Assembly: GCA_016790285.1 (NCBI GenBank) | Contig: JAEUPJ010000074.1 | Span: 1-33,656 of the forward strand | DNA from: Roseateles sp. | GTDB taxonomy: Bacteria > Pseudomonadota > Gammaproteobacteria > Burkholderiales > Burkholderiaceae_C | Direction: 5' to 3' | DNA length: 33,656 nucleotides | Shown: positions 24,757 to 32,688 of the stretch, piece after piece | Layout: each line of letters starts with the position of its first letter | Numbering within the stretch: the stretch's first letter is position 1 | Program-made: the position numbers and the translations under genes | Notes under the pieces: model-generated | What the model was told of the DNA's origin: nothing | Seen by the model: only the letters and a program-made list of their open reading frames with translations | The model's database searches: none

Positions 24757-25190
24757 TTGCGCTCGTCTTCAGTCTTCCAATTTTCCAAAGTTCTTCCATC
24801 TCTCGGAGGTACTTTGATGTGGGCCGTGGAGCCGTTGGAAGCCGGAGCGCCCGTGGGTTCCCCCGCTTCAGGCTGATCTCGGTCGTTCGATGGCGTGGAC
24901 TCCGGTGACCGCTGTTGCCGTTAGCGGACGCACTCCCGGAACCCGCCTGTCCGGTCGCCTAGCCCCTGGAACCAACCTTTGAGTGCCGCCTTGGCATATG
25001 AACTGGCCGGGTGAGCGCGCTCTCGGATCCTGCAACCTACCTCGGATCGACCGAGAACAGAAGTAGCTGTGGACGCCCGGCGATCGATTGTCGTGTTCGT
25101 ACCGAGATTCCAGGCAGCACTGAGCCCTACTCCTGTCGTGTCTGCGTCTGCGTTAGCGAGCTATGGTGAAAACTAATAGTCGCCAACTCG
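24757..25190. other. Intergenic region between tRNA-Val terminator and folE
   Basis: About 430 nt without a convincing gene, apart from one tiny reading frame (24817-24876). It contains a repeated CTCGGATC (25022-25029 and 25041-25048), the second copy of which forms a short hairpin CTCGG-ATCGA-CCGAG (25041-25055). I see no recognisable protein remnant. Likely the junction zone of the island. Confidence 0.5.
24817..24876 (+). CDS. Possible 19-codon small ORF
   Basis: An ATG with a good CGGAGG site 7 nt upstream opens a frame for MWAVEPLEAGAPVGSPASG, then TGA. No family is recognised. It could be a leader peptide, a remnant start of a displaced gene, or chance. Confidence 0.2.
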   Translation: MWAVEPLEAGAPVGSPASG

Positions 25191-25219
25191 GGAACACGAA
25201 GCAGCGTCACGGCGTCTTA
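25191..25219 (+). promoter_or_regulatory. ECF-type promoter, site A (folE)
   Basis: CGGGAAC core (GGAAC 25191-25195), 19-nt gap, TCTTA (25215-25219). The same arrangement occurs at two other sites in this cluster. It ends 18 nt before the ATG at 25238, which argues that folE starts there rather than at the earlier ATG at 25163. Confidence 0.55.
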
Positions 25220-25237
25220 GCGGCTTTCCACCATTGG

Positions 25238-25969
25238 ATGCCCATGCTTGCCGACGCTCCATCGACCCTTCTCCCCGACACGCTGCTCCGCAGGGCAGTG
25301 TCGGATCGAATCCGCCACCGCCTCATCCACGCCGGACAGCAGTACCACGCCAACGACAACATCTCAGCGTTCATCCGAGACGGCGAACTCGATGAGTTGC
25401 GCGGCGAGGTGGAGCAGCGGATGCGCGATGTGCTTCACGCCTTGGTGATCGACACCGAGAAGGATCACAACACCGCCGCCACCGCCCGGCGCGTGGCCAA
25501 GATGTTCGTGACGGAGCTATTCCGCGGGCGCTACGAACCGGCCCCGCCGGTGACCGAGTTCCCCAACGTCTCGCGACTCAACGACGTGATGCTGGTTGGG
25601 CCGATCACCGTTCGCAGCGCCTGCTCGCATCACCTTTGTCCTATTGTCGGAAAGGCCTGGATTGGCGTGCTTCCCAATGCCGCGTCCAACCTCATCGGCT
25701 TGTCCAAGTACGCGCGCATCTGCGACTGGATCATGAGCCGCCCGCAGATCCAGGAGGAGGCCATCACGCAGTTGGCGGATGAGTTGGAGCGGCGCGTGAT
25801 GCCGGATGGCCTCGCGGTGGTGATCGAGGCCACGCATTTCTGCATGCATTGGCGCGGTGTGAAGGAGGCCGAATCACTGATGACCAACTCCGTGATGCGA
25901 GGCGCTTTCCTGAGGGACCCGGCGTTGCGCCGTGAGTTCCTAAGCCTGAGGCGTGTGACAGGCCGCTGA
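25238..25969 (+). CDS. folE: GTP cyclohydrolase I (FolE) variant
   Basis: FolE opens GTP to 7,8-dihydroneopterin triphosphate, the first step to folate, tetrahydrobiopterin and queuosine-type products. The C-terminal catalytic domain has zinc ligands in SACSHHL and HFCMHWRG, GLSKYARI (Ser, Lys, Arg of the active site) and PQIQEE (guanine-binding Gln-Glu). In most members the zinc Cys is followed by Glu (CEHH); here it is Ser (CSHH). The first 70 residues are unlike housekeeping FolE. An upstream ATG at 25163 would add 25 residues, but promoter-like site A lies inside that stretch, so I use 25238 despite no strong ribosome site. Its company (cytochrome, cupredoxin, sigma factor) suggests an accessory copy under stress control. 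Confidence 0.82.
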   Translation: MPMLADAPSTLLPDTLLRRAVSDRIRHRLIHAGQQYHANDNISAFIRDGELDELRGEVEQRMRDVLHALVIDTEKDHNTAATARRVAKMFVTELFRGRYEPAPPVTEFPNVSRLNDVMLVGPITVRSACSHHLCPIVGKAWIGVLPNAASNLIGLSKYARICDWIMSRPQIQEEAITQLADELERRVMPDGLAVVIEATHFCMHWRGVKEAESLMTNSVMRGAFLRDPALRREFLSLRRVTGR

Positions 25970-25973
25970 GACG

Positions 25974-26002
25974 GGAACGCGGGAGCGGGTCGTGACGTCT
26001 AA
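25974..26002 (+). promoter_or_regulatory. ECF-type promoter, site B (cytochrome)
   Basis: ACGGGAAC core (GGAAC 25974-25978), 19-nt gap, TCTAA (25998-26002), 25 nt before the cytochrome ATG. It resembles the GGAAC...TCTAA pattern of sigma-E-type promoters and matches sites A and C. Confidence 0.6.
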
Positions 26003-26027
26003 CGGGCATCGCAACCTTGGAGATCCC

Positions 26028-27233
26028 ATGAGATACCTGACATGGAGCGCGTCAGCGACGCTCGCCGCGGCGCTGGTCGCCTGCGGCGGCAGCAGCGGCG
26101 AGGCCGCGCCTGAGGCGCCGTCCGACAGCAAGCTGATCGAAGAAGGTCGCCAGACATTCCGCTACGAGACCTTCGGCGACGAGGCAAAGTGGACTGACAA
26201 GTTGCGCATGCATGAGGTCGTGACCACGACCGTCACGCCGGCGCTGGCATTCGACGTGGGCCTTAAGGTCGACGCCGACGTACTACCTGATTCACTCAAG
26301 CAGGCGCTCGCCGCCGGCAAAGTACCGCTGGACGACCCGCAGACCACACTCGCCCTGTTGCAACTGGACGCTGTGGTCGGCCTCAAGGCACGAGTGGAGA
26401 AGGAAGGCGCGGTGCTCAAGCTGCGCAGCCTCGGGGTGACCTGCGCGCTGTGCCACTCCACCGTGGACAACTCGTTCGCACCCGGCATCGGCAAGCGCCT
26501 GGACGGCTGGGCCAATCGCGACCTCGACGTCGGCAAGATCATCTCGCTGTCGCCCGCACTCGACGCGGCCACCCAGGCGGTATTCGCCAGTTGGGGCAAG
26601 GGGAAGTACGACGCGCGCTTCAACATCGACGGCAATAGCAAGCCCGCTGTCATCCCTCCGGCCTATGGCTTGGCCGGCATCCACAAGATCACCTTCACTG
26701 GCGACGGCGACGACATTGCCTACTGGAACCGCTACGTGGCCGTTACCCAGATGGGCGGTCTGGGCAGCTTCTTCGACCCGCGAATGCCGACGGCCACCAC
26801 CATCAACAGCACCGTGGACTTGGTCAGCCCCAAGTTGGCGGGTCTGCAGGCGTATCAGCTCTCACTCGCTGCACCGGCGGCGCCTGCCGGCAGCTTTGAC
26901 GCCATCGCAGCGGGGCGCGGAAAACTTCTCTTCGAAGGCAAGGCGCAATGCATTGCCTGCCACAGCGGCAGCCTCTTCACCGATGCCAACGCGCGACTGC
27001 ACGGGCCGGACGCTTCCATGGCCGAGCCCGAGACACCCAGCCACGCAGGCCGTTCGGCTACACGGATGTACCGCACCACGCCATTGAAGGGGGCGTGGCA
27101 GCACGCACCCTACTTCCACGACGGCAGCGCCGCGACGCTGGAAGACGTGGGTGCCACCTACAACGCCAGGCGCAACCTCGGCCTCACACCGTCCGATATC
27201 AAAGACCTCGCGCAATACCTGAAATCACTTTGA
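26028..27233 (+). CDS. Diheme c-type cytochrome lipoprotein
   Basis: A 401-aa exported electron-transfer protein. The N-terminus MRYLTWSASATLAAALVACGG ends in a lipobox (LVAC, Cys19), so the mature protein is lipid-anchored. Two haem c sites are visible: CALCH (139-143) and CIACH (308-312). The second half resembles MauG/cytochrome c peroxidase-type cytochromes (GRGKLLFEGKAQCIACH, TTPLKGAWQHAPYFHDGSAATLEDV), with Met or His ligands possible. GGAG precedes the ATG at 26028; an earlier ATG at 25992 lies before the promoter's expected transcription start. Substrate unknown; a periplasmic redox enzyme or electron relay is likely. Confidence 0.82.
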   Translation: MRYLTWSASATLAAALVACGGSSGEAAPEAPSDSKLIEEGRQTFRYETFGDEAKWTDKLRMHEVVTTTVTPALAFDVGLKVDADVLPDSLKQALAAGKVPLDDPQTTLALLQLDAVVGLKARVEKEGAVLKLRSLGVTCALCHSTVDNSFAPGIGKRLDGWANRDLDVGKIISLSPALDAATQAVFASWGKGKYDARFNIDGNSKPAVIPPAYGLAGIHKITFTGDGDDIAYWNRYVAVTQMGGLGSFFDPRMPTATTINSTVDLVSPKLAGLQAYQLSLAAPAAPAGSFDAIAAGRGKLLFEGKAQCIACHSGSLFTDANARLHGPDASMAEPETPSHAGRSATRMYRTTPLKGAWQHAPYFHDGSAATLEDVGATYNARRNLGLTPSDIKDLAQYLKSL

Positions 27234-27235
27234 CG

Positions 27236-27264
27236 GGAACGACCGCGCGATTCGCAACATCTAT
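27236..27264 (+). promoter_or_regulatory. ECF-type promoter, site C (DUF4142-cupredoxin-sigma)
   Basis: ACGGGAAC core (GGAAC 27236-27240), 19-nt gap, TCTAT (27260-27264), directly after the cytochrome stop codon and 40 nt before the DUF4142 ATG. It shares spacing and core with sites A and B. Confidence 0.6.
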
Positions 27265-27304
27265 CACCTGTCGGCACTTCCGACGTCAACCTCCAGCACC
27301 AACT

Positions 27305-27826
27305 ATGACCCGACGCCTCTCCCTCGCAGTACTCGCCGCTGCCGCTACCCTGACCCACGCCGCCCACGCCGCCGAAGGGCCCAACGACGCGCAAATTGCC
27401 GCCATCGTCGTGACCGCCAACCAGGTGGATGTCGATGCCGGCAAGCTCGCCGCGGGCAAGACGAAGTCCGCCGCCGTCAAGGCCTTCGCGCAGCAAATGG
27501 TCACCGATCACAGCGGTGTCAACAAGCTGGCGGTCGACCTCGTCACCAAGCTGAAGGTCAAGCCGCAGGACAACCCCACGGCACAAAGCCTGCAGAAAGG
27601 GGGCGACGACAACCTCGCCCGGCTGCGCACCCTGGACGGTGCGGCTTTCGACAAGGCCTATGTGGATCGCGAAGTCGACTACCACGTGGCCGTGCTCGAC
27701 GCCCTGGACAAGGTGCTCATCCCCAGTGCCAGCAACGCCGAGCTGAAGGCACTCCTGGTGAAAGTGCGCCCTGCCATCGATGCCCACCTGCAGCACGCTC
27801 GTCACCTTCAGGGTGAGTTGAAATGA
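27305..27826 (+). CDS. DUF4142 exported protein
   Basis: A 173-aa periplasmic helical protein. The signal peptide MTRRLSLAVLAAAATLTHAAHA is followed by NDAQIAAIVVTANQVDVDAGKLA, FAQQMVTDHSGVNKLA and YVDREVDYHVAVLDALDKVLIP, a recognisable DUF4142 (ferritin-like four-helix) pattern with conserved His and Glu. Function is not established for the family, which often appears near stress and sigma-factor genes. Its TGA overlaps the cupredoxin ATG by 4 nt. Confidence 0.85.
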   Translation: MTRRLSLAVLAAAATLTHAAHAAEGPNDAQIAAIVVTANQVDVDAGKLAAGKTKSAAVKAFAQQMVTDHSGVNKLAVDLVTKLKVKPQDNPTAQSLQKGGDDNLARLRTLDGAAFDKAYVDREVDYHVAVLDALDKVLIPSASNAELKALLVKVRPAIDAHLQHARHLQGELK

Positions 27827-28137
27827 AGCTGCGGCTTCGCGCCGCCGCGGTCGCCTGTGCCTGCCTCGCCGCAGGGCCGGCGGCCTGGGGCAAGACTCAT
27901 ACGGTCATCATCGAGGGTATGCGCTTCAACCCCGAGACCTTGACGGTCAAGCGCGGCGACCGCGTCACATGGGTAAACCGCGACGTGGTGCCGCATACCG
28001 CGACCGCTGGCAGGACGTTCGACTCGGGGGCCATCGGGCCTGGCGCGTCCTGGAGCATAAGGGTGAAGACGCCCGGACAGACGGGCTACGTCTGCGCACT
28101 GCACCCGATGATGAAGGCCTACCTCAACGTGCAATGA
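27823..28137 (+). CDS. Cupredoxin (plastocyanin/pseudoazurin-like)
   Basis: A 104-aa exported blue-copper-type protein. After a signal peptide (to about residue 23, AWG) comes MRFNPETLTVKRGDRVTWVN, then copper ligands His58 (VPHTAT), Cys91, His94 and Met97 (YVCALHPMMKAYLNV). The compact fold fits a type 1 copper electron carrier that could pass electrons to or from the adjacent diheme cytochrome. It overlaps DUF4142 and is followed 5 nt later by the sigma factor, so the three form one transcript. Confidence 0.87.
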   Translation: MKLRLRAAAVACACLAAGPAAWGKTHTVIIEGMRFNPETLTVKRGDRVTWVNRDVVPHTATAGRTFDSGAIGPGASWSIRVKTPGQTGYVCALHPMMKAYLNVQ

Positions 28138-28141
28138 CGCC

Positions 28142-28888
28142 ATGAACACGACGATTTCCCTCCCGGAACTGAGCGGTCGCCAGGCAGATCTCGACTTGGC
28201 GCTGCAGGTGGCTGCGGGCGACTCTGCCGCCTTCGCGCGCCTGATGCGCCAGTACAACCGACGGCTCTTTCGCCTCGCGCGAGTCACACTAAAGCATGAC
28301 AGCGACGCGGAGGACGCGCTCCAGGAGGCCTATCTGCAAGCCTACCGCGCGATTGGAAAGTTCCGCGGGGAAGCATCGCTGGGAACCTGGCTGTCGCAAT
28401 TGGTGGTGAATGAATGCTTGGGCCGGCTGCGCAAGCAAGCGCGCCGCGACGGCATTGCCAGTTTCGTTCCCACTGCGTCCGAGGTGGAGGAGGCCCCGCT
28501 AGACACGGAGATTGACGCCATGGTTACAGCGCCGGCCGAAAAGCCCGAAGACGCACTCTCCCGCGCGCAGTTGCGCACCCTCATCGAGCGCAGGCTGGAC
28601 GATCTGCCTGAGAGTTTCGCGGCGGTCTTCGTGCTGCGCGCTGTTGAGGAGCTGAGCGTGGAAGAAGCCGCGCAATCGCTCGGCATTCCTGAAGCGACGG
28701 TGCGCAGCCGCTATTTCCGGGCACGCGGGCTGCTTCGCGAGTCGCTCGCGCAGGATCTTGACTCCGCGCAGCGCGACGTCTTCGCATTCGACGGTGAGCG
28801 TTGCGACCGCATCGTGGCTTCGGTGCTGGCCAGGCTGCGTGAGCAAGCCGACCATGAGCGCCGCTTTACGCTCGCGCCCACGCGCTGA
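28142..28888 (+). CDS. ECF-family RNA polymerase sigma factor
   Basis: A 248-aa sigma factor. Region 2 spans about residues 20-90 (FARLMRQYNRRLFRLARVTLKHDSDAEDALQEAYL is split here over core-binding and -10 helices), then an acidic linker. Region 4 is at about 140-195 (LDDLPESFAAVFVLRAVEELSVEEAA, GIPEATVRSRYFRARGLLRE). A 50-residue C-terminal extension is present, which is longer than minimal ECF sigmas. No intact anti-sigma gene is visible next to it. It probably recognises the CGGGAAC-N19-TCTA sites in front of its own operon, the cytochrome and folE; that link is inferred. Confidence 0.9.
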   Translation: MNTTISLPELSGRQADLDLALQVAAGDSAAFARLMRQYNRRLFRLARVTLKHDSDAEDALQEAYLQAYRAIGKFRGEASLGTWLSQLVVNECLGRLRKQARRDGIASFVPTASEVEEAPLDTEIDAMVTAPAEKPEDALSRAQLRTLIERRLDDLPESFAAVFVLRAVEELSVEEAAQSLGIPEATVRSRYFRARGLLRESLAQDLDSAQRDVFAFDGERCDRIVASVLARLREQADHERRFTLAPTR

Positions 28889-28899
28889 GAGGGCTTTTC

Positions 28900-29109
28900 A
28901 TGCGCATTTGGGCTGAGCGCTGGAAGTTCACACTGAAGGTCGCCGGCGCGCTGCTGGCGATTGGCCTCGCAACAGCGGATGCCTACGTTGACCTCGTCCA
29001 GCCGGCAGACGTGTGCCGCGTCCGGCAAGCTCTTTGGCAAGAGAATGGAATCGACGCGACGCACGACCGACTGCGGCGTCCGTTCATTGTGGTCACAACG
29101 GAATTCTGA
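28900..29109 (+). pseudogene. Truncated membrane-protein start
   Basis: The 69-codon frame has a good GAGAGGG site and begins MRIWAERWKFTLKVAGALLAIGLA, a single membrane helix or signal anchor. After about residue 45 the sequence loses pattern, and its last 17 nt overlap the opposite-strand histidine-kinase remnant. It looks like the 5' end of a gene cut by rearrangement, immediately downstream of the sigma gene. Whether it was the anti-sigma factor cannot be told. Confidence 0.45.
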
Positions 29110-29425
29110 CGGCCGCGACGAACCCGCCGCCCTCTCGGGGCGACAGTTCCAAATCACCTTGGCAATGCACCAGAGGCCGCTGAACGATCGCAAGCCCCAA
29201 TCTCGTGCCGCCAGTTTCACGACTACGAGATCCTTCAATTCGGTAGAACGGCTTCGTGATTTTATCGGCATCTCTTGCCGGTATCCCAGAACCTCGGTCC
29301 ATGACGCACATCACTAGCTTGCCGTCTTGCCGCTCCATCTAAACATCTGCCGCGCGGGCGAACTTTGGAGAGTTGTCGATGAGATTCACCACAATTCGGT
29401 GGAGCGCCTTCCGCCTGGTTCTCAC
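29093..29425 (-). pseudogene. Histidine kinase C-terminal remnant
   Basis: Only the ATP-binding domain end of a two-component kinase remains. N-box ALHRIVVNLIDNSPKFA, then an in-frame TAG (29339-29341), then DRGSGIPARDADKITKPFYR, TGGTRLGLAIVQ and GGGFVAAVRIPL to the stop. The G2 box has Arg for Gly (GTRLGLAI instead of GTGLGLAI). The dimerisation and sensor parts are missing. It is decayed and non-functional. Confidence 0.75.
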
Positions 29426-29454
29426 GGTGGTGAGCGGGCCACCTTTCCGGCTCC

Positions 29455-29870
29455 TTTGACATCGCAGCAGCCGCCTGCATGCGGCTGCTGCGGCCGAATT
29501 CGGCTGGCGTTGACCATTCCAACGCCGAGTATCGGCGGTTCTCGTTGAAGTTCTGTCGTCAAGCCTCGATCTTGGCGCGCGCATCGTCCAGTGACAAGAA
29601 CCAATGCTCGTTCAGGCATTCCTGGCGCGGTCGCCCGTTGAAGCTCTCGACCGCGACGTTGTCTCCGTCGGTCTGCCTGGCCTGCTGAAGTTCAGTTCGA
29701 CGCCCCGCGCGTACGCCCATTTGTCCATGGCTTTGGAGATGAACTCACTGCCGTTGTCGGTCCTGATGGTCTGCGGCGGCCCACGGTGCAAGACGATGCT
29801 GCCGAGGACGCGCATGACGTCTCCGCCCTTCAAGCTCTGGCCCGCATCGATCGCCCAACATCAGCCCGTA
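29455..29870 (-). pseudogene. IS3-family transposase remnant (integrase core, C-terminal part)
   Basis: The pieces IRTDNGSEFISKAMDKWAY, GVELNFSRPGRPT, VAVESFNGRPRQECLNEHW and ALEWSTPAEFGRSSR are the rve core and C-terminus of an IS3-family OrfB. A frameshift near 29,660 and an in-frame TGA (29559-29561, originally Trp) break it, and the N-terminal half and inverted repeats are absent. It lies directly upstream of the kinase remnant on the same strand. Confidence 0.8.
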
Positions 29871-30083
29871 GCATCCGCTCTTGCCGTTGGGGCAGTGGGT
29901 CGGAGCCTGATCACGCTGGCGCGCGGAGACCGGTATGCGCTGATGACCGGTCACACGGCGCTCAGCGCCGACCGACTGAGATCGCTGCAAAGCGGTCAAC
30001 CACACCATCACTAGGGCCGCTATTTGTGGCCCTGTAGTGGAGCGTCTGCAGTTTCGACTCTCACTGAGAGAGCTCCGCAGCGT
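29871..30083. other. Unassigned sequence between IS3 remnant and IS5 element
   Basis: About 210 nt with no convincing gene. The part next to the IS3 remnant may be its decayed upstream half, but I could not align it by eye. Ends at the CTAG target duplication of the IS5 element. Confidence 0.4.
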
Positions 30084-30087
30084 CTAG

Positions 30088-30103
30088 GGCTACGCTGAAT
30101 AAG
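30088..30103 (+). repeat. IS5-family left inverted repeat
   Basis: Perfect 16-bp match, in inverse orientation, to 31251-31266; preceded by target duplication CTAG at 30084-30087. Confidence 0.92.
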
Positions 30104-30161
30104 GTCGGCGTACCGGGTTGATCTGGTGGCAATGCAGGTGCCGCGTCGGGATGATGCTCGC

Positions 30162-31130
30162 ATGAAGCAAGCAACCCTGGCAGCGGCAGCCGATCAAGGC
30201 GCGGAGTTCGAGCGATTCCGTAGGCCGACGCGGCGCGACGTGTTCCTGCAGACGATGGACACCATCGTGCCGTGGGCCGAGTTGTGCGCGGTCGTCGAGC
30301 CGCACTACCCCAAGGCGGGCAAGGGGCGCCCGCCTATCGGACTGCAGCGCATGCTGCGCATGTACTTCGTGCAGCACTGGTTCAATCTCGCTGACGAGGC
30401 CTGCGAGGAAGCGCTGCTGGACAGCACGGCGCTGCGCCGCTTCGTGGGCATCGACCTGGGCCGCGAGCGCGTGCCCGACGGCACCACCTTGCTGAAGTTC
30501 CGCCGCTTGCTGGAGGACGACAAGCGCAAGCTGGGTGCGGCGCTGTTCGCCAAGGTTGGCGAAGTGCTGCAGGACAAGGGCCTGAAGATCGGCACCGGCA
30601 CCATCGTGGACGCCACCATCATCTCGGCGCCGAGCTCGACCAAGAACGACAAGGGCGAGCGCGACCCCGAGATGCACCAGACCCGCAAAGGCCAGCAGTG
30701 GCACTTCGGGATGAAGCTGCACATTGGCGTGGACAGCAAGACCGGGCTGGCGCACAGCGCGGTGGTGACGGCGGCCAATGTGCACGACAAGCACGCGATC
30801 CCGCAGCTACTGCACGGGGCCGAGCGGGAGGTGTACGGCGATAGCGCCTATGCCTCGCAGCAGGAACTGATTGCCAGCAAGGCTCCGCAGGCGCAGGACC
30901 GGACGAACCGGCGAGTGGGCCCAGCAGGCATCACGGCTGACATCGAGCGCATCGCCAACCGCATCAAGTCCAAGGTGCGCTCGCGGGTGGAGCACGTGTT
31001 CGCGGTGGTCAAGCGGCAGTGGGGCTTCAGCAAGGTGCGCTACAGGGGCTTGGCCAAGAACGCGACACGCGCGTTTGTGGCGCTGGGCCTGGCCAACATC
31101 TACATGGCGCGCAGCCACTTGATGGGATGA
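30162..31130 (+). CDS. IS5-family transposase (DDE)
   Basis: Catalyses cut or copy steps of the surrounding IS5-family element. From the ATG at 30162 (MKQATLAAAADQG) it is 322 aa. An N-terminal DUF772-type domain (GRPPIGLQRMLRMYFVQHWFNLADEA, LLDSTALRRFVGIDLG) is followed by the DDE catalytic fold: Asp in IVDATIISAPSSTKN, Asp in VYGDSAYAS, Glu in RSRVEHVFAVVKRQWGF. In-frame earlier starts at 30126 (GTG) and 30132 (ATG) exist. The reading frame is intact, so the element may be active. Confidence 0.92.
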   Translation: MKQATLAAAADQGAEFERFRRPTRRDVFLQTMDTIVPWAELCAVVEPHYPKAGKGRPPIGLQRMLRMYFVQHWFNLADEACEEALLDSTALRRFVGIDLGRERVPDGTTLLKFRRLLEDDKRKLGAALFAKVGEVLQDKGLKIGTGTIVDATIISAPSSTKNDKGERDPEMHQTRKGQQWHFGMKLHIGVDSKTGLAHSAVVTAANVHDKHAIPQLLHGAEREVYGDSAYASQQELIASKAPQAQDRTNRRVGPAGITADIERIANRIKSKVRSRVEHVFAVVKRQWGFSKVRYRGLAKNATRAFVALGLANIYMARSHLMG

Positions 31131-31250
31131 GTGCGTCTGCAGCGCACGGGGGCCGAGCCCGTAGCCCGAGCGGGGCATACGGATGGGCAGATTCGCAGTC
31201 CGACGTCTTCGCGATGATCAGCTCGCCGCGGGAGGCTTGGAAATCGATGG

Positions 31251-31266
31251 CTTATTCAGCGTAGCC
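31251..31266 (-). repeat. IS5-family right inverted repeat
   Basis: Inverse copy of the left terminus; followed by target duplication CTAG at 31267-31270. Confidence 0.92.
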
Positions 31267-31283
31267 CTAGTTCAACAACGGTG

Positions 31284-32339
31284 CTACGCAAGCGGCGTCA
31301 CCTTGATGGTCTTGCGTCGGTCATAGACGGTTCGCATGGTCTGCGGGTTCTTGTGCGTGTTTGGGTCACGCTTCTGTTCCAACATCTCGGACACATACAG
31401 CGCACGCAAATCGTGTGCGCGGAACCACCTCGTTGACTTCGTTCCCTCCGGTGCGTACGCGCGCATCAGTTTCTGCCAGAGCGCCTTGAAACCGTGGTCG
31501 GTGTATGGCTGACCTTCGCGGTTGGCAAACAGGAACCCGGAGATCAGCGGCGGCCGGTTCTTGGCGCGTCGGTGCTTGATCGACATGGCCTCCGTGATGA
31601 CCTGACGAAGTGTTGGGCTCCACTCGACGAGGTAGAAGCGCTCAGCCTCGCCGGCCTTCGTCTTGTTGTCCTTCACGTTAATGCCGTGCTCGGTCATTGC
31701 CGCCTTTGGCAGCCGCAGAATCTCCCCGCGCCGACGCCCAGTCAGTGCTACGCAGCATCCGATCAAGGCGACAAGGTAGCTGGAGCCGCCCTTGCTCCTC
31801 GCAAATGCCAGGAAGTCGTTGAACTCGCTGATCGCGACCTTGCGCTGGCGGGGGCGCTCCGGGTTGCGCTTGTATCCGCGGCACGGATTCGACTCCACGG
31901 CTCCGCTCGTCATGCCGTAGTTGAATGCCGACGACAGCGCGCTCATCTCTTTGTTGGCCCGCACACCGTTTCCTTGTTTGCGGCGCATCTTGAGGTACTG
32001 CGCGGCGTCGGTCGGCTTGAACGCGCGCGGGTGCATCTCACCGAAGACCTTGCATACGGTCTTCAGGCAAAGCTCGTAGTCGACCAAGGTGTTCTCCCCG
32101 AGCGCCGTTTCGTCACCATCCGCACGCATCTGCCTTTGCTCGGCAAGGTATCCATCGCACAAGGCCCGGATGGTGGTCTCGCCGCTTGGCAGTTCTAGCA
32201 GCGCAGCGAGTCTGATGATCGCTTGTTGTTCGTCGTGACCGAGCGAGACCCGCTTTCCTCCGAGGCGCGTGTAATAGGTTGAGCGCCGCTTCCCAATGGT
32301 GGCGTACAAGTTGGGCGCAATCTTCACTTCCTCAGTCAT
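31284..32339 (-). CDS. Tyrosine recombinase / phage-type integrase
   Basis: Site-specific recombinase of 351 aa that would integrate or excise the island. The N-terminal arm-binding region and SAM-like core-binding domain (about residues 55-150) are followed by the catalytic domain. Catalytic residues visible: Arg203 in TGRRRGEI, His309 and Arg312 in HDLRAL, and nucleophile Tyr339 in TMRTVYDRR. The ATG at 32339 lies 4 nt after the DUF4224 stop, so the two are one operon. It sits about 6.6 kb from tRNA-Val, further than usual for a tRNA-targeting integrase. Confidence 0.88.
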   Translation of the reverse strand: MTEEVKIAPNLYATIGKRRSTYYTRLGGKRVSLGHDEQQAIIRLAALLELPSGETTIRALCDGYLAEQRQMRADGDETALGENTLVDYELCLKTVCKVFGEMHPRAFKPTDAAQYLKMRRKQGNGVRANKEMSALSSAFNYGMTSGAVESNPCRGYKRNPERPRQRKVAISEFNDFLAFARSKGGSSYLVALIGCCVALTGRRRGEILRLPKAAMTEHGINVKDNKTKAGEAERFYLVEWSPTLRQVITEAMSIKHRRAKNRPPLISGFLFANREGQPYTDHGFKALWQKLMRAYAPEGTKSTRWFRAHDLRALYVSEMLEQKRDPNTHKNPQTMRTVYDRRKTIKVTPLA

Positions 32340-32343
32340 GGCG

Positions 32344-32688
32344 TCATGCTCCCAATAGCGCGGCCCAGTTCGGCGAGCCTCCGTCGATCCGATCGCCGGT
32401 CGTGCCAAGCTTGCAACCCATCTTCGTTTCGTAGTGCGCCCGATCGACGCGCGGCTTTCCGAGCCGGTCTAGGCGGAACTTGAATCCGTTCTCCTTGAGC
32501 CAGCGGGCCTGCTCCGCGCCGCGCTTGTAGCCAGTGAGCTCACGCAACTGCTCGGCGGTTAGGGTCAAACGCGTTGGCGTCGCCATCGCGGACTCAAAAT
32601 CTTCCGTTCGGGCGCGTGCCCCATCAGGGCGCTGAGCGAGACGGGAAAGGGGCTCCTCCGATTTGCGGGAGGACAGCAGTTCGGTCAT
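32344..32688 (-). CDS. DUF4224 protein, possible recombination directionality factor
   Basis: A 114-aa protein. The C-terminal half (LTAEQLRELTGYKRGAEQ, then WLKENGFKFRLDRLGKPRV) is the DUF4224 domain, a small winged-helix-like fold commonly encoded just upstream of phage integrases. GGAGG 6 nt before the ATG at 32688 fixes the start; an internal ATG at 32586 would leave only the domain. An excisionase-like or regulatory role is inferred from position and size. Confidence 0.8.
   Translation of the reverse strand: MTELLSSRKSEEPLSRLAQRPDGARARTEDFESAMATPTRLTLTAEQLRELTGYKRGAEQARWLKENGFKFRLDRLGKPRVDRAHYETKMGCKLGTTGDRIDGGSPNWAALLGA

Follow-up and report, generated by a model that had tools for sequence, protein, structure and literature searches.

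The cluster at positions 25191-28888 of the window, by which we mean the whole 33,656-nucleotide stretch of Roseateles sp. DNA analyzed here, contains three matched elements that are very likely the promoters of one ECF regulon, read by the sigma factor encoded in the cluster itself and subject to positive feedback, as judged from sequence comparison. The elements share one motif and one spacing that are conserved in other genomes and tied to a single sigma factor family, and no equally good sites occur elsewhere in the genome, in which the regulon appears to be confined to the cluster.

The cluster and its three elements

The window corresponds to contig C59 in a genome of 5.88 Mb (107 contigs, 95% complete); the five proteins of the cluster match those of a Roseateles sp. 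MAG locus (L039), which is its own record, at 100% identity. All features lie on the plus strand in the order P1, folE-like gene, P2, diheme cytochrome gene, P3, and the genes for a DUF4142 protein, a cupredoxin and the ECF sigma factor. The predicted promoter P1 (25189-25219; -35 element GGAAC at 25191-25195, -10 element CGTCTT at 25213-25218) is the weakest of the three and is assigned to a gene for a FolE-like GTP cyclohydrolase I (25238-25969; PF01227, 145.8 bits). P1 falls within the longest open reading frame of this gene, which begins with ATG at 25163. Since the reading frame of the corresponding locus in Pelomonas aquatica (L040) begins at the ATG that matches position 25238, this is the likely folE start and P1 is located upstream of it. 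Four NCBIfam FolE models match the protein, each with a score under the respective cut-off, and the genome has one further PF01227 locus. P2 (25972-26002; GGAAC at 25974-25978, CGTCTA at 25996-26001) is the predicted promoter of a gene for a diheme protein resembling MauG and cytochrome c peroxidase (26028-27233), which exceeds the cut-offs of PF21419 and PF00034 and carries two CxxCH motifs in its translation; every NCBIfam relative stays below its cut-off. P3 (27234-27264; GGAAC at 27236-27240, CATCTA at 27258-27263) would serve an operon of DUF4142 (27305-27826; PF13628, 138.8 bits), a cupredoxin of the plastocyanin/amicyanin type (27823-28137; PF00127, 37.7 bits), the start of which overlaps the DUF4142 stop, and the sigma factor (28142-28888), which starts 4 nt past the cupredoxin gene.

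A small open reading frame for 69 amino acids with one hydrophobic stretch follows the sigma gene (28900-29109, plus strand). It matched no Pfam family at E≤0.001 and, among the loci compared, was confined to copies of the window and Pelomonas aquatica loci; residues 1-44 are 89% identical in Pelomonas aquatica. Upstream, the cluster is preceded by a tRNA-Val gene with a terminator-like hairpin, and the sole sigma-70-like promoter between 24560 and 29600 sits ahead of this tRNA and not ahead of the units of P1-P3. Downstream, the stretch 29093-32408 contains histidine-kinase fragments on the minus strand, a transposase gene (30126-31130) and, also on the minus strand, an integrase-like gene (31284-32408) whose Phage_integrase match is under the Pfam cut-off. 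The arrangement, with tRNA-Val on one side and the transposase and integrase genes on the other, resembles an island; among 20 of the 36 repeat families, no direct repeat bounding such an island was recognized between tRNA-Val and the end of the window.

The first-pass annotation had described three GGAAC-N19-TCTW elements of equal spacing, and these are exact: GGAAC starts at 25191, 25974 and 27236, the gap is 19 nt each time, and the sites read CGGGAAC followed by TCTT, TCTA and TCTA, respectively. The starts it gave stand, but its ends lie one base too far, the TCTW elements ending at 25218, 26001 and 27263. In the window, GGAAC-N{17,21}-TCTW matches six times where 0.70 matches are expected, a count reached in 0 of 100 shuffles, and the gap is N19 only in the three sites. 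Across the genome CGGGAAC-N{17,21}-TCTW yields eight matches, four of them with N19: P1-P3 plus a match on contig C23. GGAACG-N{16,19}-TCTA yields six, which are P2, P3 and four elsewhere, two of these with the same spacing, and a fuller consensus with two mismatches tolerated yields 133. Because such looser patterns match elsewhere in the genome, the short pattern alone is no proof.

A more discriminating picture is given by matrices built from relatives. When both strands of the window were scored with an independent matrix of 60 training sites, none of them from the window, from its own record or from Pelomonas aquatica, the three sites ranked as the top three (34.2, 25.0 and 15.7 bits), followed by a match of 12.7 bits. 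Among 59.6 million simulated positions none reached the score of P2 or P3 and 21 reached that of P1; with about four chance matches per genome at its score, P1 is weak on sequence alone and not significant genome-wide by itself. With the leave-one-locus-out matrix described below, its counterpart before folE in Pelomonas aquatica scores 22.3 bits as compared to 18.9 bits for P1. A sequence-only profile of 66 sites, the training set of which includes the three window and three Pelomonas sites, ranked P2 (E 9.8e-6), P3 (0.0065) and P1 (0.26) first to third in the own genome, ahead of a fourth match at 0.45. The best three matches of the genome under this profile, which was trained with them, are P1-P3, so that sites of comparable strength are not scattered over unrelated genes. 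As promoters, P2 and P3 are more firmly supported than P1.

Conservation of the motif and its linkage to the sigma gene

A scan of GTDB genomes returned 110 relatives of the sigma factor, of which the best 80 (L039-L118) were used. On the strand of the sigma gene, the TCTW form with N19 gave 31 matches in 27 loci as compared to 0-4 at other spacings from 12 to 25 and four on the opposite strand. From an ungapped alignment of 66 sites, comprising the three of the window and 63 chosen from 90 sigma-strand matches, the consensus CGGGAACGC-N16-CRTCYA was obtained, that is, a -35 element GGAAC, 17 nt and a -10 element CRTCYA. The -35 element reads GGAAC in 64 of these sites and GGAAT and GAAAC in one each; the -10 element begins with CATC in 51 and CGTC in 13, together 64/66. 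The downstream element, TCTA/TCTT in the first-pass annotation, is more aptly taken as a -10 element CRTCYA behind a 17-nt spacer. With the window's own record and Pelomonas aquatica excluded, 78 loci remain, among them L117, which NCBI likewise assigns to Roseateles; 62 of these contain GGAAC-N17-CRTCYA on the sigma's strand, 68 times altogether. Any other spacing between 8 and 24 gives 0-3 matches, and the opposite strand has a single one at N17. A leave-one-locus-out matrix built from the 31 TCTW sites and applied with a threshold of >12 bits found a site in 70/80 loci versus 1/80 on the opposite strand, many matches carrying TCCA, which is absent from the training of the matrix. A pattern variant found afterwards is present in five further loci (L043, L046, L053, L094, L108). 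Neither matrix nor pattern detected a site in four of the 80 loci (L079, L085, L111, L115), and L089 has no upstream sequence. As the 80 loci include several close kin, for example from Paraburkholderia and Achromobacter, they are not independent cases. Pelomonas aquatica KCTC 42961 keeps all three sites and genes; the 3.9-kb block that it shares with the window (91% identical) has its left end at 25175, 16 nt upstream of the GGAAC of P1.

A search for RpoE-type promoters in 18 loci with weaker sigma matches (L021-L038) produced three GGAAC-type matches in two loci and offers no usable contrast. Covariation between -10 element and sigma residues, computed for 60 of 68 loci with kinship included, pointed mostly to fast-changing linker residues for the T/C/G position and to residues 53, 24 and 49 first for the A/G position; no conclusion is based on this pattern.

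In a sample of 100 related genomes including the own one, a sigma factor of at least 40% identity divides 12 carriers from 88 genomes without it. At E≤0.01 the 66-site profile gave ten matches, all at the sigma locus, which are present in 6/12 carriers versus 0/88 of the remainder (Fisher 7.8e-7); dropping the two genomes tied to the training set by contig (G000 and G005) leaves 4/10 versus 0/88 (Fisher 5.8e-5). An order-wide sample of 250 genomes, which overlaps the first and possibly the training loci, gave 7/13 versus 4/237 at the same threshold (Fisher 4.7e-8): eight of its 12 matches lie at the sigma gene in seven genomes, and four in genomes without this sigma (about 2.5 expected). Six of the 12 related and six of the 13 order-wide carriers have no match at E≤0.01. 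Weaker matches at the sigma locus were found in G026 (E 0.0127), G089 (0.054) and G082 (0.30), and just beyond G026 follow three genomes without a PRK11922-type sigma (G034, G024, G012; E 0.02-0.05). The carriers G029, G051 and G095 show no profile match among those listed, which extend to E of about 0.6. Profile searches over 40 genomes apply stricter filters, by which weak matches are lost. Less clean is an exact scan of the 100 relatives for SGGAACG-N16-CRTCTA, with five of 13 matches at the sigma locus and eight elsewhere.

These distributions bear directly on the question of which sigma factor reads the sites. The three sites resemble sigma-E promoters, which have a GGAAC-type -35 element; the solved proteins closest to the cluster's sigma factor include RpoE and AlgU; and a protein matching this factor at E≤1e-20 is encoded in 75/100 related genomes, mostly at about 30-40% identity. 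Another ECF factor of the cell, for example the housekeeping RpoE, might accordingly be the reader, with the cluster's own factor a bystander or directed to other sites. Such a widespread reader predicts the motif in genomes without a PRK11922-type sigma, however, and none of the 88 has it at E≤0.01; moreover, the best sites adjoin the sigma gene, and we regard this alternative as unlikely. A separate transcription factor, for which the conserved element would serve as operator, is very unlikely: sequence conservation alone does not distinguish operator from promoter, but the two boxes differ from each other, are set 17 nt apart in almost invariably the same orientation, accompany a sigma gene and mostly lie directly ahead of a member of the gene set, all of which argues for a promoter. 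Chance or leftover intergenic duplication, to which the 72% likeness of P2 and P3 across 32 nt might point, can be set aside, since both boxes and one sharp distance are conserved across loci and the spacer sequence is not, just as the first-pass annotation had argued against plain repeat duplication from the differing spacers. Its proposal that the ECF factor of the cluster is the reader agrees well with the outcome of the co-occurrence check in relatives that it had suggested, and recognition by this factor is the reading adopted in the following.

Predicted targets and the probable feedback loop

RNA polymerase carrying the cluster's sigma factor would recognize the -35 GGAAC via region 4 and the -10 CRTCYA via region 2, 17 nt apart, and would thereby jointly start transcription of the folE and diheme cytochrome genes and of the DUF4142-cupredoxin-sigma operon. 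As the sigma gene is the last of the third unit, activity of the factor would raise its own level. Transcription from the sites and operation of the loop in vivo are what we infer from this arrangement. The inducing signal is perhaps envelope or redox stress, judged solely from the nature of the targets.

Such autoregulation appears to be a recurrent arrangement, because the sites of relatives mostly precede DUF4142 or sigma genes. The first conserved gene past 91 matches, 90 of them on the sigma's strand, is DUF4142 in 42 cases, sigma in 26, a ferritin-like gene in four, and folE, a diheme cytochrome or a reductase-like gene in three each, with another gene or none in ten; the assignment was automatic and is incomplete, the cytochrome site of the own record having been scored as 'none'. 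The positive autoregulation put forward earlier for the P3 operon would thus extend to relatives. Clustering of neighbors separates 47 loci with DUF4142 in 43 and cupredoxin in 34 from 33 loci with Ferritin_2 in 17, cytochrome c in 16, the diheme cytochrome in seven and FolE in six, one of the latter (L085) being a FolE of the ordinary type. The partner genes of the sigma factor are thus interchangeable within L039-L118, DUF4142 and cupredoxin on the one hand or Ferritin_2 and cytochrome c on the other.

The FolE paralogue adjoins the sigma gene in the window and in L040, L093, L102, L109 and L111, and carries the motif SACSHH versus SLCEHH in the FolE of L085. A 21.9-bit site at position 6762 of L051, counted as opposite strand, lies before a small family resembling membrane proteins that is also present in L109 and possibly marks a further target. 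A DUF4142 protein is increased in an exponential-to-stationary comparison in B. thailandensis, with no link to this sigma factor being shown (PMC12322963).

A sigma factor family with a cysteine-bearing tail and its relation to known systems

The factor has the properties of an ECF sigma factor in that it contains sigma-70 regions 2 and 4 only (PF04542, PF08281/PF04545; TIGR02937 above cut-off) and is associated, at the level of sequence, with group-specific -35/-10 promoters including its own. It belongs to NCBIfam PRK11922 (NF008888; 289.1 bits versus a cut-off of 204), as do all 69 aligned sigmas (that of the window and 68 from the set of 80, after removal of near-duplicates and truncated genes; E≤1e-30). 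The closest solved chains by sequence are P. aeruginosa AlgU and E. coli RpoE. A fold search placed RpoE first, M. tuberculosis SigE second and AlgU third, at low whole-chain TM-scores of 0.28-0.36, and region 2 alone gave 0.88-0.90 by the length of the target. The resemblance to sigma-E noted at the outset holds in so far as RpoE and AlgU are the nearest solved proteins and the factor is RpoE-like by its sequence, but not as membership, since its score against the RpoE model TIGR02939 is far below the cut-off (117.3 versus 236.15 bits).

The predicted model (mean pLDDT 83.1, pTM 0.60) shows an extra helix of residues 218-243 within a C-terminal extension (28757-28846) of the motif FxFxGxxCDRxV. 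Cys221 (codon 28802-28804) within this helix is present in 80/80 relatives and invariant among the 69 aligned. The extension is a candidate for a self-sensing tail that controls the sigma factor. ECF factors usually, though not always, have an anti-sigma gene next to their own. No anti-sigma family was found among the cluster genes of the window by Pfam scan or among eight recurrent neighbor families, nor among ten mechanically selected sigma-adjoining open reading frames in ten of the 80 loci, three of which matched no family. With considerable doubt, we propose a widespread sigma factor family without an anti-sigma, in which the factor would be held inactive by a C-terminal helix, some 40 residues long and with a single invariant cysteine, that would also sense a redox or metal signal, the feedback switch then driving an interchangeable periplasmic electron-transfer module and a FolE paralogue.

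The kind of gene control considered here is well known, but the regulon itself is undescribed in the literature searched: an open full-text search retrieved no description of it, the main ECF classification, which may list the motif, being outside its scope, and nothing on this sigma family under ECF22, PRK11922 or DUF4142. PRK11922, apparently an uncharacterized family, is given a predicted promoter of precise form, a list of targets and a hypothesis of self-control, and searches with the motif can locate the regulon in further genomes that have this sigma. The genes that recur as targets point to a role of DUF4142 in periplasmic redox processes, to which they also link the FolE paralogue. 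The more interesting question is how an autoregulated sigma factor with no recognized anti-sigma stays off.

Among known systems, PRK11922/NF008888 itself includes the factor under a model name, 'RNA polymerase sigma factor', that gives neither function nor promoter. With RpoE/AlgU the factor has in common the region 4 helix TVRSRxFRAR, also present in the AlgU chain, and this shared helix fits a GGAAC -35 box as in sigma-E; the factor differs by its C-terminal extension and in that no RseA/MucA-type gene was found near it. The ECF26 factors (RpoE1 and RpoE4 of Sinorhizobium meliloti, SigE of Starkeya novella) are similar in having a -10 element CGTC and small regulons with pseudoazurin and a cytochrome c-like protein (PMC6180224, PMC6527743). 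Their -35 element is GGAAT (PMC6527743), and an anti-sigma gene adjoins the sigma gene; with GGAAC in 64/66 aligned sites the promoters described here are not of the ECF26 type (GGAAT, CGTC). CorE of Myxococcus xanthus (ECF238) has an extension with six cysteines, whereas the tail of the cluster's sigma contains one conserved cysteine and hence does not represent the Cys-rich C-terminal domain of ECF238. Nevertheless, CorE is likewise an ECF factor that lacks a linked anti-sigma, and its C-terminal extension, only 38 residues in length, controls its activity (PMC3107203).
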